64,000 bases of DNA, from NCBI GenBank assembly GCA_031763025.1, contig JASSKH010000020.1, forward strand, positions 12,351,547 to 12,415,546, read 5' to 3'. A program made the translations under genes and the position numbers. This DNA is from Macrocystis pyrifera (taxonomy: Eukaryota > Sar > Phaeophyceae > Laminariales > Laminariaceae). A model generated the notes under the pieces. The model saw only the letters and a program-made list of their open reading frames with translations, had not been told where the DNA came from and did no database searches. Numbering within the stretch: the stretch's first letter is position 1; the number at the start of each line of letters is the position of its first letter. This document shows, in pieces, positions 4,225-23,490 of this stretch.

Positions 4225-4690
4225 CCCCGAGTTTCGACGGTACAACACCGAATATCGGCAGTGGCACAATGCGGTTTGGCGGTGCTAACGCTGGTTTCGG
4301 CGGTGCTACTGCGTGGTGCGGCGGTGCTACTGTCCTTTCCACCGGACGTATATCATGTTTCGGCGATACTGCCAATTGTAGCTCTGTCACTGCTACGCCT
4401 GGTGGTACCGCTGCGGGTTGCGGCATTTCTATTGCAAGGCGTGCGGTGCTAATTCCGATTGAGACTGGGTTTCAGCCAGCCGAGGTATGACTACGTCAAG
4501 CTGCCGTGGTGCTACTTCTCTCTGCGGTGGTGTGTCTCCGACGTTCAGCGATGTTACTCCTACATGCCGCGGTGCTGCTCCTAGTGGTCGCAAAGGTGCG
4601 CTTAGCTGCCGTGGTGTTAATGCCAGCTGTGGCGCTGCTTCTGCGAGTGTATGCGGCGCTACGCCAAGCTGCTCGAGAAGCACTGGCGGT
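4225..4690 (-). repeat. 21-bp coding minisatellite (heptad-encoding)
   Basis: On the plus strand a unit of the form GCGGTGCTACTNNNNNNTGCC repeats with a 21-bp step, diverged between copies, from about 4262 to 4690, with weaker units to about 4225. Read on the minus strand, each unit gives seven residues of the type A-P-x-x-L/V-x-x. The part from 4690 to 4432 is in frame with the sulfotransferase and forms its tail. The rest (4426-4187) keeps the heptad pattern but in another frame, after the stop at 4431-4429. Unit length divisible by three lets copy number change without disturbing the frame. Confidence 0.8.
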
Positions 4691-7600
4691 AACCACACAC
4701 GAAGAACTTCGTCAGCAGTATTGACTACTGCCGCACTAACCTGATCCTCAAATCGGCGAGAACCTACGTCGGTCTTGGTCTTTTCACCCGGATGCTCGTC
4801 GATGTGCTTCCTGTTAAAATTGAAATCGTAGTTAACCGCCCCATTTGCGGTGTCGTTGACAATAGTAAACGGGAGCTGCAAGCCCACCATGTCAAACCAA
4901 GTGTGGTGCCAACCCAAGGGATTTGCGAGGGCTTTCCGGTACCAAAACTCCGTAGACTGATGGGAGAGAGAGCCAGAGAAGAGGGTATAGCGCACCGCCA
5001 GCCATTGGCACATGATCGGCAATTTCTTGGCGACAAACTCTTCTAGCGAAGGAAGGTTCGTTCTGGCAAGGCGTTTCAGGTGAAAGTACGAGCTCACGAC
5101 GGCTGGTCTCGGGTCTCTGAACACGGCCATCTGGAGCCAATCGTCGACGATCTCGCAGTCCGCTTGGTGCATGCATTGCCACAGGTCATCCTGAGAAGTA
5201 AGGCGGCGACCATCCCTAAACTTGCAAGCATTTTTTACTCTTTGCGCACCACTTTCGATGGGGCCGAAGTCAATGCCACGCCCGTGGCTGTAGGCACAGT
5301 CACGGCTTACTGGAAGTGTATGTTTGTCGAAGTCGGATAATTCGATGGAGACTCTGGGGGTAAACACAAACCACAACCGAAACCGAGCACAGGCACAGAG
5401 CGAGTAGGAAACAAATTCAGAAACGTTGCACGCGATATCGCTCACCATGTAGACGCCGTGGTGATGCCGAAGCGTTCTACGGTAGGGTTGAACACATTCG
5501 TTACTGGGGCGTTTCAATTGAAGAGCTATATGTTTCGTTTAAAAAACTTTGGGCCAGACTAATTAACAACTTTGTGAACAGACTTGTACCCTACGTATAC
5601 CGCGCATATTGTAGTAAACATGTCTCCGTCTTGTAACGATAGTCAGTAGTACCTCCGTCAAGGTGCCTAGTCGGCCAGATCTATATACACTGACCTGTGC
5701 TAGGCCTATCGTTTCACGCATCTGGCGTTGCATCGTACAGATGAGCTGCGCTATTGTTCCACGTAGGGTGTGTGCGTTTCCACACAAAAAAATCTCACTA
5801 GTCAAATATCAAATTCTTCATCCGAGGGGAGGCGAAACATCTGGAATATTTGCGTCCGATCTGAACCATTCAGGGATATTCGATAGATCTCTACGAATAT
5901 AGGCGGCGCCATCATACATCTGTTGTTGATTTACAAGAGGCGAGCCTCAGAACACCCAGGTGCTAACCCTACCCTAACGCGCGTCTGACAGGTAAACGGC
6001 CTTGCGTGGGCATAAAATTGCCCACACTCGTACAATGGAAAGCATGATACATTTGTGCAAGTATCTGTCTGATGCTGCAAATGGATGGTCGAGGACCAGA
6101 TCGAAGAGTGGTGGTACCCTCACCATCGGGTGTCCCTGTACTGTAGTACATGGCACGAGGTGTCCCGCTTACTTCCACGCCGCTCTACGTCAATGTTTTC
6201 AGTTTTATATTTCTGTTTTGACTTCCCACAAAGTATCTTCCGTGCATATTCCAGCGCTATACATGTACATGTCGAACATTTTCACTTACACCCTTACATC
6301 TTCTAGCAGTGTCAAAGTGAATAGTTGTTCACCTTCCCCTCTCGAACCCACCTGTTTGTACCCCCCCCCCCTTTCATGCAAAGCCCTTGTTTATTGCACT
6401 TATCCTGAACCGTTCATCCCCACGACATTCCCAGCATTTATCCGAGCAGGCCATTCCGCAAACATGGTACGACCATAGAAATAATCGGTCCATATCCTAG
6501 ATATTCAATCTTCACATGGTTTTAGTGTTTAGCGCATTTATAGTTGCGTTGGGGGCGATATATCTCGTAGCAGTCACAGGATCAATCCCATAGCTGTGCT
6601 ACGGCAACTGTTGGGGTTATAATGTTGAGCTCCAACGTTTCTCCCTACTAGATCTCCTCCACTATCAACTGGTAGATATGTGATACTGTGCATCGGGATT
6701 TCTCACTATATTTATCTCAAAATCGTTCGTAGATTGGAGTATAGATATGTCAAAGGAACAGGGTTAGGGTTAACCCTAACCCTAACCCTAAGTCTCTTGA
6801 ACAAAAATAGTTGATATTTCTATCGTAGCGCATGCCCCTTAGGGATAATAAACAGATAAGGTACACCGCTAGAAAGCGTTTTTCCCGCAGGACAACAGAG
6901 AAAGCAACAAGAAGGGCTCGCCGTCAACCAAACCTTGGTCGCGAATTGAGACGCGCACGCACTGGGATCTACTTCATTGAATCACTTGGTTTATGCGCGG
7001 CGCTTTGTATCGGGCACGTTTTCCAACTGCTCGAGGTCACGCGGTGTTTCACCTGGACCGGTCAACGTCTAACATGAGAGGCTCTAAACCGCACATGCAA
7101 ACTACGGTTTAAAGATGCTGCAAGCACTACCCGGGGGGCTGAATGTTGAACGAACAATGACGCAAGGCAATAATTGCGTTCCAACGTCTTTGGGCAGTTC
7201 TTGCGAAGAGAAGCCTCCTCTGTCAGAGAGGTTTACACTTTATACTACTGTATCCCTTTTGTCATTGACGTCGCAAATACTTAAAATGCTATGGCTCTCG
7301 CGATTCTATATCAACTCTCGATCGTTATCCAGGACCACCTCTTCTACGGGGTCAAACCACTTACAAGCTTGGGTTGCACGCTTGCAACGATATGGGTACC
7401 ACGTTTTAGCCTAAAAGGTTCTGACTAACTGGGCTCCTGCTCCGACCAACTACCCAATATCTTTCATGTACCAATGGGTGCTATCATTAGGTTTTCGTGG
7501 CACATCTACCTCTCTCGTAGGCGACGGCCGATTTCGCTTTGGTTTCTGTCGAAATAGATCCTTGCAGCTAGGAGCCTCAGAACATTTAGATGTTAAGCTA

Positions 7601-9786
7601 TTTCGTCATAGTTGCAGTCTCATAGTAAAGAGACGATCGCCGAAGCCTCAAATGGGTATGTGTGGCAGTGATATCAATGCAAGGTGTGGGACTGATTCAA
7701 CTATAGACTTGATACGGTAGGCGACCCTTCTCAGCAGGGAAGCACATGTTCTGGTCACCATGTTTACCGCAAGGCGTCTTACGCCCCATCGTTCCATTTT
7801 CTGCAACAACATCACCATCAACTCTCTCCGCTGTCTTTTGCTAACGTCGAGCAGATATACCGAAACTCAGTGAAGTTCATTTGTTTCGTTGTAACCTATT
7901 ATTGTATGATTCGTTCTACTCCTTGCTACATCAAGCGACTCATCGTGCCGAGCAAGGCCTCCATACACAGCGTGCTCGCCCTGGCGTATTACCTTTCGAT
8001 AGTTTCACATGGACATCTCGAGTTGTGGCCACCTAGCATCGGCTGGAAAACTAATCTTCGATTAGCAGCCCGCCCCAGTTGCTGCTCGCCGTGCACTGTT
8101 TTCTTGAACTCGATCCGACAACTCTCTTCACCTGGGTGTCGTAGCATATGTACCAGTAGCAGCAACGCAGGACGCAACAGGATGAAGCATATCGACTACA
8201 GCTGTTGCACGCGATTCTAAAGACTGCAAGCATTTATCTGACTTGTATAATAACAGGTGGGTAAGAACTGCAGAGCGGGCAAAGGGCGAATCACCGAAAC
8301 CTGTGTTCCTGACAAAGTGTATCTCCATTCTGTGTGTGTGTTTGTTATTAGCGTCACTTACGCCTTCTACCCCAATTCGTGATATAATTAGGACAATGGC
8401 ACGGTAGGGGTGGTTCGTTTGGTTTGGAACTTACCACACGGAATAGTCCATATCTGACGCAATACGTGATCTCGAAGAATTTCTTTGCGCAGCGGGCCGA
8501 CATGCTTATGTGTAAATCCTGTTAGCAACTATGGTACTGTCATTAAGTACATACTACACTAACCGGTATACCAATACTTGCTCACTTGAATAACTCAACT
8601 GGTCAGGAAATATTGCGGGACAACATGCAATCCCTACCGCGGCAGGAGTCATCAGTGAGGGAGATTTACCCGCGGCGGTATCGTCGACTACAGCACAACG
8701 GTATTACCTGTCGTGAAGTGTGTTTTTCTTGTCCCCCGCCGCCGCAGTTGCCTTCACTATTATCAGGTACATACGTTTGTCTTGATAACATATGTCATTA
8801 TTCCACGTATTCATAGTCACTGATACCACAACGTTTGAGACTATGAACGTTCGTCCACTGGGCGTGCACTGCGGGCATGCACCCCGCCAAAGGAGTCGTC
8901 TCGTATAGCACGGATGCTAGCGTACTATCTTAAAAAACACCCTATCACACATTATCACACCCGGTGGCATACATGTTTGCGTCAAGTTAGCATCGGGGGG
9001 TACGTGGAACAACACCTCCCTACGGAGTAATGCATGAAATAACACAGTTGTACCAGCACGGTGGGCGAACGGACTACATACATAATACACATATTTTTAT
9101 TCCCAGACTCGGAGTCTTGGCCAGCCTACTGACCGTCCTACACCTATGATACGCTACATTGACTCCAGTGAAACATATGATTTTCACAATTTTCGTAACA
9201 TGCTCAGTTTTTTCTTTCTCAAGTGCTGTCTGCAACTCTGTATTAGACTTCGCAGAGCACGGTGTAAAAGTTGATTTATCGATAGGTACGCGTGACATAG
9301 AGTAATTAATACAAAGCGTCATAATTATTGTCTCCACCTGGTGCCTCGGAAACTAACCACACTAGATATATTCGCACCGAACAAATATTTCAGGTAGTCG
9401 CACGTCCGTAGCAGAGTTGCTGTTGCCCAGTCGTACATGAAGCTGGTGCCACTCTTAGGCTCTCCGCGTTGCTGCACTTTCACCTCTTGGACCAGCTTCC
9501 CGTTTTCCCCGGTGCTCTCCAGCTTCCGGAAAAAGAGTTCACACGGCGGACATTTCTCTTGCGAACGCTCTATCAGCACGGCCGGTATGTCGTGGTTGTC
9601 GGGAAGCTTCTGCCTTGTCGAAGCGATCCAGTTCATAACCAGACAAAGGATCACCATTGTTATCAGCATCACGAACTGCAGATGGCGGAACCTCATAGTT
9701 GTTCCGGTTGCTTCACAGTCGCACCCTGTGTTGTGGTTCGGGCGGATAGGATTTCGGGTGGGCATGGTAGTGAACTCGCACGACAT
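4429..9786 (-). CDS. Type II membrane sulfotransferase (PAPS-dependent), two exons
   Basis: Predicted to transfer sulfate from PAPS to a carbohydrate or similar acceptor in the Golgi lumen. Exon 1 is 9786-9338 and exon 2 is 5353-4429; joined they give 457 residues. Residues about 37-55 are a single hydrophobic anchor after a short N-terminus, the layout of a type II Golgi enzyme. PKSGTSF at 110-116 is the 5'-phosphosulfate-binding loop. RDPRPAVVSSYFH at about 229-241 is the 3'-phosphate-binding motif. The intron is phase 2: donor CAG|GTGGAG at 9337, acceptor TTTACCCCCAG|A at 5354, and the split codon AG+A restores Arg150. Neither exon alone has both PAPS motifs, which supports the joining. 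The tail from about residue 375 is a run of roughly ten heptads (A-P-x-x-L type) encoded by a 21-bp minisatellite, unusual for the family. The heptad pattern continues past the stop in another frame, so the 3' end may be altered or annotated short. Acceptor substrate is unknown. The start ATG at 9786 is the first before the anchor; an extra 5' exon is possible. Confidence 0.75.
6761..6791. repeat. Interstitial telomeric repeats, head-to-head
   Basis: Two plus-strand GGGTTA units run straight into about four CCCTAA units, giving an inverted junction at TTAA. Arrays of TTAGGG type cap chromosomes in many eukaryotes, including several algae. An inverted block of this kind is what an end-to-end fusion or a filled-in double-strand break would leave. 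At about 31 bp, chance cannot be wholly excluded. Confidence 0.75.
8040..8150 (-). repeat. Dispersed sequence family, copy 1 (shares a peptide with 44015-44115)
   Basis: On the minus strand about 90 bp align with 44015-44115 on the plus strand. The shared parts are CCCAGGTGAAG, GTTGTCGGATCGA, CAGCAAC and CGGGCTGCTAATC. In one frame both give Pro-Gly-Glu-x-Ser-Cys-Arg-Ile-Glu/Asp-Phe-Lys, and further on, in another frame, Gly-Leu-Leu-Ile. It may be a decayed exon or a transposon fragment; I do not recognise the family. Confidence 0.5.
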
Positions 9787-16460: not shown

Positions 16461-16582
16461 ATACTTGGCCAGGCGGTCTTGCATGAACTACACCAGTAGT
16501 TGTATGAACTACACCAGTACTTCCATATATGCAGCAGTACCTCTTGAAGTAGCGGCCAGTACTTCCATATATGCAGCACGAC

Positions 16583-22960: not shown

Positions 22961-23344
22961 GTGAAGAGGGAAAACAAGTCATAGGCGAAAGCACCAGAGC
23001 GCTTTTACCTTGGCCCTGCACCAAACTACCCCCGAGACTCAGCACGAATATTGACAAAGAATCGCACTGTGCCAATCACGCGCAACGTCATCTGGCAACG
23101 CGTGTCGCCTGCACCACCTGTACCTGCCGAGGCGAATGACTCCCTGTCTACGGAAAAGGGGGGGTCAGAGGCAGGCGACGTGAGCACGTCGGATCGAGGT
23201 GGTGGGGGGGCGGTGGATGAGCTGGATGACGGTCTGGCTCACTTGAACGACCACGACGTGACGTGGGGTTTTGGCCTGGACGCGTTTATGTAGGAGCGCG
23301 CGCAGCAGGCACCTGCCGCCGACGAGGCCGGCGGCAAAACATTC

Positions 23345-23490
23345 GAGAGGATAGGTTCGTCTCAAGGGGGCGCCGTGGACGCCTCCTCGGTCCCGTCAGG
23401 GAGGGCCGAAACAGCCGAGAGGATAGATTCGTCTGAAGGGGGCGCCGCGGACGCCTCCTCGGTCCCGGCAGGGAGGACCAGAAGCGACTC
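23345..23490 (+). repeat. 72-bp tandem duplication in the pol linker
   Basis: Two copies of a GC-rich unit beginning GAGAGGATA (23345 and 23417), including GGGGGCGCCG and GGACGCCTCCTCGGTCCC. It lies in the variable region between integrase and reverse transcriptase. Confidence 0.8.

Follow-up and report, generated by a model that had tools for sequence, protein, structure and literature searches.

A predicted C-terminal extension of a giant-kelp sulfotransferase, best explained as built from the gene's own last codons and now decaying

The 64,000-nucleotide stretch of Macrocystis pyrifera DNA analysed here (the window) harbors a three-exon sulfotransferase gene on its minus strand (9696-9378, 8131-7993, and 5353-4429), predicted from homology. 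The spliced exons amount to 460 codons and a stop, and their borders are GT-AG. Exon 1 (9378-9696) carries the start codon, an N-terminal hydrophobic stretch, a P-loop-like 5′-PSB motif, and a GT donor, and shares 84% protein identity with the corresponding exon of a paralogue. Exon 2 (7993-8131) has AG/GT borders, and a matching segment is present in all five paralogue loci L041-L045. Exon 3 (4429-5353) follows an AG acceptor, is homologous to the terminal exons of the family, and encodes the remaining catalytic domain and a predicted tail, closing with a stop codon at 4431-4429. The first-pass annotation had placed a sulfotransferase with a repeat-built C-terminus at 4225-5353, which is right to within a few bases (last-exon start, 5353; end of the fitted array, 4228); the two upstream exons and the minus strand are to be added to its description of the gene.

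Two motifs of the sulfotransferase type are present in the window protein, both on the minus strand and each conserved in one alignment of relatives. The first, RGEPKSGTSFMYDW (9427-9468, exon 1, read from the spliced translation), is of the 5′-phosphosulfate-binding type, and its residues 77-84 and 90 are invariant in alignment A2 (five sequences). The second, FRDPRPAVVSSYFH (5080-5121, exon 3), is of the 3′-phosphate-binding type, with F79, R80, D81, P82, R83, V87, and S88 invariant in alignment A1 (11 sequences). They correspond to the 5′-PSB and 3′-PB motifs, respectively.

The window protein matches no Pfam family at E ≤ 5, and the sulfotransferase label is assigned by homology to relatives that pass the curated cut-off of Sulfotransfer_1 (PF00685, 22 bits). 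Three of the seven paralogues given do so, i.e., L029, L030, and L032 (24.6, 23.1, and 22.4 bits, respectively), with matches spanning positions 95-251 or 95-249 of the profile. L036, L021, and L028 match the same profile below the cut-off, and L031 matches only PF13469, weakly. A PF00685 search of the genome returns two family members over the cut-off, at the places of L029 and L030. Among the five A2 sequences, one has a PF13469 match at E 0.19 and one an unrelated weak NCBIfam match (E 0.068). By sequence, the PDB yields no match for the single window protein and none for the A2 alignment; with A1 the best match is a weak one to an aryl sulfotransferase (E 0.22), and nothing is significant.

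The core of the protein comprises residues 1-386. It aligns without gaps over 386 codons with that of paralogue L041, which lies 141 kb from the window gene on the same strand and has the same three exons. The two cores are 80% identical in amino acids, with a dN of 0.11 and a dS of 0.67; therefore, the core is taken to be under purifying selection. The hydropathy of the N-terminal stretch peaks at 2.34 (19-residue window) at residue 8, and nothing reaches 1.6 past residue 30. This stretch is most likely the membrane anchor of a Golgi-type enzyme, in which case a C-terminal tail would sit at the far end of the protein, a position that does not suit the "stalk" proposed in the first-pass annotation.

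Downstream of the catalytic domain, the last exon runs into a 21-bp array of 21 units (4235-4671, minus strand, with a partial 22nd unit reaching 4228), delimited by cyclic-consensus alignment and periodicity. The consensus unit, CAACTCGCAGTAGCACCGCCG, translates as Q L A V A P P. Identity at lag 21 is 0.48 over 470 nt, a value reached by none of 1000 dinucleotide shuffles (maximum 0.33; 0.34 across all lags from 10 to 60 in 300 shuffles). Tandem Repeats Finder, the check suggested at the outset, detects the array at 4278-4332 (85% matches) and reports nothing else within it because the rest is too diverged for that program. Mean unit identity is 66% to the consensus and 48% between pairs; adjacent units average 0.50, and the best pair reaches 0.75. 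The array is thus old by its sequence, and its homogenisation appears to have ceased.

In-frame tandem units in the last exon form the C-terminal tail of the gene prediction, bearing out the proposal that a minisatellite builds the C-terminus. The predicted translated tail (4429-4653, minus strand) has 74 codons and a stop and is composed of 15% Leu, 15% Ala, and 14% Pro. A 1-bp deletion in unit 11 (4443-4444, placed by counting units) splits the array into 11 units before and 10 after. Because it shifts the frame, translation would end within unit 12, about 10-12 bases in, at the TAG of 4431-4429. Past this stop, what is left of unit 12 (8 nt) and units 13-21 (4235-4428) continue in another frame, as had been noted, and stay in register apart from 3 bp deleted from unit 15.

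The distribution of the array was read across the gene family. A search of the genome (537,376,219 bases in 223 contigs) places at least 55 matches to the last exon and at least 45 to exon 1, both counts being lower bounds. Loci were cut for 30 of the last-exon places, and the terminal exons of these 30 were read. Twenty-eight of them stop 0-14 codons past an LGV-type motif, in agreement with the expectation that sulfotransferases end soon after the fold. The other two, the window gene and the paralogue L012/L041, carry the array and group together with 100/100 support in the tree built from all 30. L012/L041 matches the window gene at 81%, and its array has 11 units with two in-register stops, the TAA in unit 4 leaving a predicted tail of 15 residues.

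The 28 array-less paralogues were checked for array remnants in 126-nt windows covering the last 60 bases ahead of the stop and the 1000 that follow it, and none convincing was found: lag-21 identity never exceeds 0.44, against 0.57 and 0.52 for the genes with an array. Isolated unit-like matches are present in some of these flanks (L028, score 15.2 at +326; L013, 13.1 at +350). Unit-by-unit orthology between the two arrays gives no signal (mean 0.527 at offset 0; 0.47-0.56 at other offsets). Because unit order cannot be matched, a single shared origin of the two arrays rests on parsimony, and separate growth in each gene may have occurred instead.

Several terminal exons have features of their own. 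Among the array-less paralogues, L039 has the longest C-terminus past the LGV-type motif; it is aberrant and, having an internal TAA, is probably a pseudogene. The last exons of L031 and L040 add eight residues after LGV (QSSGEQAV and KSAEEEAL, respectively). The L031 extension resembles the second unit of L012 (GEQAV) and is possibly an early single duplication, with the spacing off by one codon. On the coding strand, the last unit of the L041 array closes with GCACCTTGG. Paralogues L013 and L014 end in GCACCTTGA, a single base away, and it looks as though the former stop had been located at the far end of the array. A stretch of about 300 bp at window 13170-12886 recurs at L044 3885-4188 (77% identity) and, on the opposite strand, at L041 about 1774-2090. 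Of the five paralogue loci compared, two contain it, in opposite orientations; it is probably a dispersed repeat.

The sequence of the unit itself points to its source. The consensus unit Q-L-A-V-A-P-P resembles the consensus of the family's last codons, K-L-G-V-A-P, and the first 18 nt of unit 1 (4654-4671, minus strand) read Q-L-G-V-A-P, aligning with the terminal codons of the paralogues; these codons are the proposed ancestral C-terminus and seed of the array. A position matrix built from units 2-21 was scored on the 126,966 window 18-mers outside the array, and only two of them reach the score of the window gene's own terminus. The consensus terminus KLGVAP of the 28 array-less paralogues scores 12.6, reached by three of the 18-mers, and is positive in phase 0 only, the other 20 phases being negative. 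With a matrix from units 12-21 alone, 35 of the same 126,966 reach the consensus terminus.

When all in-frame 18-mers of each array-less exon are ranked, the terminal codons come first in 14 of 28 cases and within the top three in 19, falling outside the top three in nine. Several array-less termini score at least as high, i.e., L024 (14.7), L020 (13.3), L033 (12.9), and L013 (12.5). Seven score below 0 (L016, L029, L032, L035, L036, L037, and L039), and most of these are shorter or diverged at that point. The paralogues are not independent tests of the match because LGVxP is shared by descent. Two genome searches of limited sensitivity returned no second copy of the array; together with the in-phase match to the terminal codons, this makes growth out of the end of the gene itself, in frame and upstream of the stop, the most likely origin.

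On these grounds, we propose with good confidence the following account. The two neighboring sulfotransferase genes of giant kelp would go back to a common ancestor in which the final seven codons (x-Q-L-G-V-A-P) underwent tandem duplication in frame; further rounds of duplication would have placed a 21-bp minisatellite behind the catalytic domain, ahead of the stop. Divergence of the units and an end to turnover would have followed. Most of the tail would later have been lost in each gene independently, through the 1-bp deletion in unit 11 in the window copy (leaving 74 residues) and through the in-register TAA in unit 4 in L012/L041 (leaving 15). The present tail would be a flexible appendage rich in Pro, Ala, and Leu, under loose constraint and more tolerated than essential, on a Golgi-type enzyme anchored in the membrane. 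In short, the locus is best explained as a predicted C-terminal extension built from the gene's last codons and now decaying.

A functional role is the alternative that fares best, though we consider it doubtful. Here, the tail would be a flexible repeat whose frame is held by selection, for example because it keeps partner enzymes in place or serves as a carrier of sugars in the Golgi. Indel rates were calibrated on the noncoding flanks and introns of paralogue pairs, using 10 long blocks of 21 and dropping 11. The blocks used give 0.067 frame-breaking indels per substitution (89/1328), and a hand count in the dropped blocks gives a similar rate (22 per 394 mismatches). At this rate, the window array, with 151 differences from the consensus, should hold 10.1 frame-breaking indels, and one is observed (P 0.0005). 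Units 1-10 hold none against 5.2 expected (P 0.006), and units 12-21 none against 4.6 (P 0.01); the array of L012/L041 holds three against 4.6. With the unit 11 deletion set aside, none of the 21 window units has an in-register stop (neutral P 0.044), although the lack of stops is unremarkable for units 1-11 alone (neutral P 0.19).

Differences by codon position are 0.25/0.34/0.40 in units 1-11 versus 0.33/0.32/0.33 in units 12-21, with unit 12 scored as untranslated although the shifted frame extends over its first 13 bases. In the window alone, however, this trend is not significant (Fisher 0.10; column permutation 0.14; unit-label permutation 0.07), and it becomes marginal once the units of the paralogue are added (0.050 and 0.034). 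At half the indel rate, the indel P values become 0.04-0.10 (0.04 for the whole array). The unit counts are, moreover, not independent because units share mutations by descent, and this shared ancestry weakens the tests, as does the choice of indel rate. L012/L041 has itself lost most of its tail. The comparisons are suggestive only, and what they suggest is that the reading frame, more than the amino acids, was preserved through much of the life of the array.

A fuller version of the history that brings in such selection is best treated as tentative. In it, the tail was invented by duplicating the codons beside the stop, which was pushed outward seven codons at a time. Selection on the frame would then have maintained an open stretch of at most about 147 extra residues in a Golgi-type sulfotransferase, before a 1-bp deletion late on cut the tail of one gene by half and a nonsense change truncated that of the other.

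That the array never entered a protein, with the transcript ending or splicing earlier or the gene being dead, is unlikely. The splice borders and frame are intact, the frame is open straight into the array, and the core has a dN of 0.11 versus a dS of 0.67.

Very unlikely, in turn, is an origin outside the gene, in which a minisatellite was inserted from elsewhere or the loss of an ancestral stop let the frame run into pre-existing repeat DNA, as the "recent read-in of repeat DNA" of the first-pass annotation would have it. The array does start where the array-less paralogues end, and part of it is untranslated, which speaks for such an origin. Against this stand the in-phase match of the unit to the gene's own terminal codons and the pairwise identity of about 48%, which does not suit a recent event. 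Read-in of a dispersed repeat is disfavored by the same match and by the absence of a second copy in both searches of the genome, one by DNA, which skips common words, and one by pattern. Both searches also missed the diverged array of L012/L041; therefore, their sensitivity is limited, and diverged copies elsewhere could be missed.

An active VNTR with copy number and tail length varying between individuals, the "variable" half of the stalk proposal, is very unlikely because the units are only 48% alike (mean pairwise identity 0.48, rather than the near identity of an active C-terminal VNTR) and so presumably too diverged for much slippage or unequal exchange. The greater similarity of the units near 4278-4332 would favor it, but these lie past the stop.

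Among minisatellite periods in the sequence examined, 21 is the most frequent, occurring in 11 of 72 repeat arrays across 321,792 bases, some of them duplicates of one another. After removal of repeated 30-mers, it accounts for four of 35 exact runs of at least 12, so that the general excess of 21-bp tandem duplications is weak without duplicates. Elsewhere in the window, tandem duplications of 21 and 20 bp overlap at 16479-16578, their units being unrelated, and about two copies of a GC-rich 72-bp unit (91% matches) lie at 23337-23476.

The case is of interest because many array-less paralogues show the ancestral terminus, so that the birth of a coding minisatellite from a gene's last codons is almost open to view. 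As an instance of protein lengthening it is clear but fairly ordinary, the match between unit and terminus being the new point, and it lends itself well to the questions of how protein tails arise and whether they are retained or just tolerated. In a limited survey of titles and abstract openings, neither a repeat tail seeded by terminal codons nor a brown-algal sulfotransferase with such a tail was encountered. The kelp sulfotransferase family is thought to sulfate fucoidan (PMC7291590), a role stated at the level of the family. In another kelp, Saccharina japonica, 44 sulfotransferase genes are described, with five tandem-duplicated clusters and groups carrying Sulfotransfer_1 and Sulfotransfer_3 domains; the passages available from that paper mention no repeat tail (PMC7291590).

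Three known systems offer partial parallels. In Nematostella, tandem-repeat proteins are likewise encoded by repeats open in more than one frame and are discussed as a source of new coding sequence. Unlike the kelp tail, they are proteome-wide predictions and are not seeded by a gene's last codons (PMC2805694). The nearest analogue of the array as it now works is the C-terminal VNTR of carboxyl ester lipase (CEL), which likewise lies in the last exon, at the end of a gene for an enzyme, and has a period divisible by three. There, single-base deletions in units give rise to altered tails (PMC8692231). The CEL segments are 33 bp long, near-identical, and number three to 23 in people (PMC8692231), whereas the kelp units are 21 bp long, about 48% alike, and known from one genome; no homology is claimed. 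In origin, the nearest analogue is provided by the "mirage" minisatellites of amphioxus globin genes, for which the Adh3 case is also cited (PMC3087553). These minisatellite-like arrays, like the one proposed here, arise when sequence at a boundary of the gene itself is duplicated in tandem. The boundaries duplicated in amphioxus are exon-intron borders, reportedly without disturbing normal splicing (PMC3087553), whereas in the kelp gene it is the coding end that would have been duplicated, and the product is predicted to be translated.
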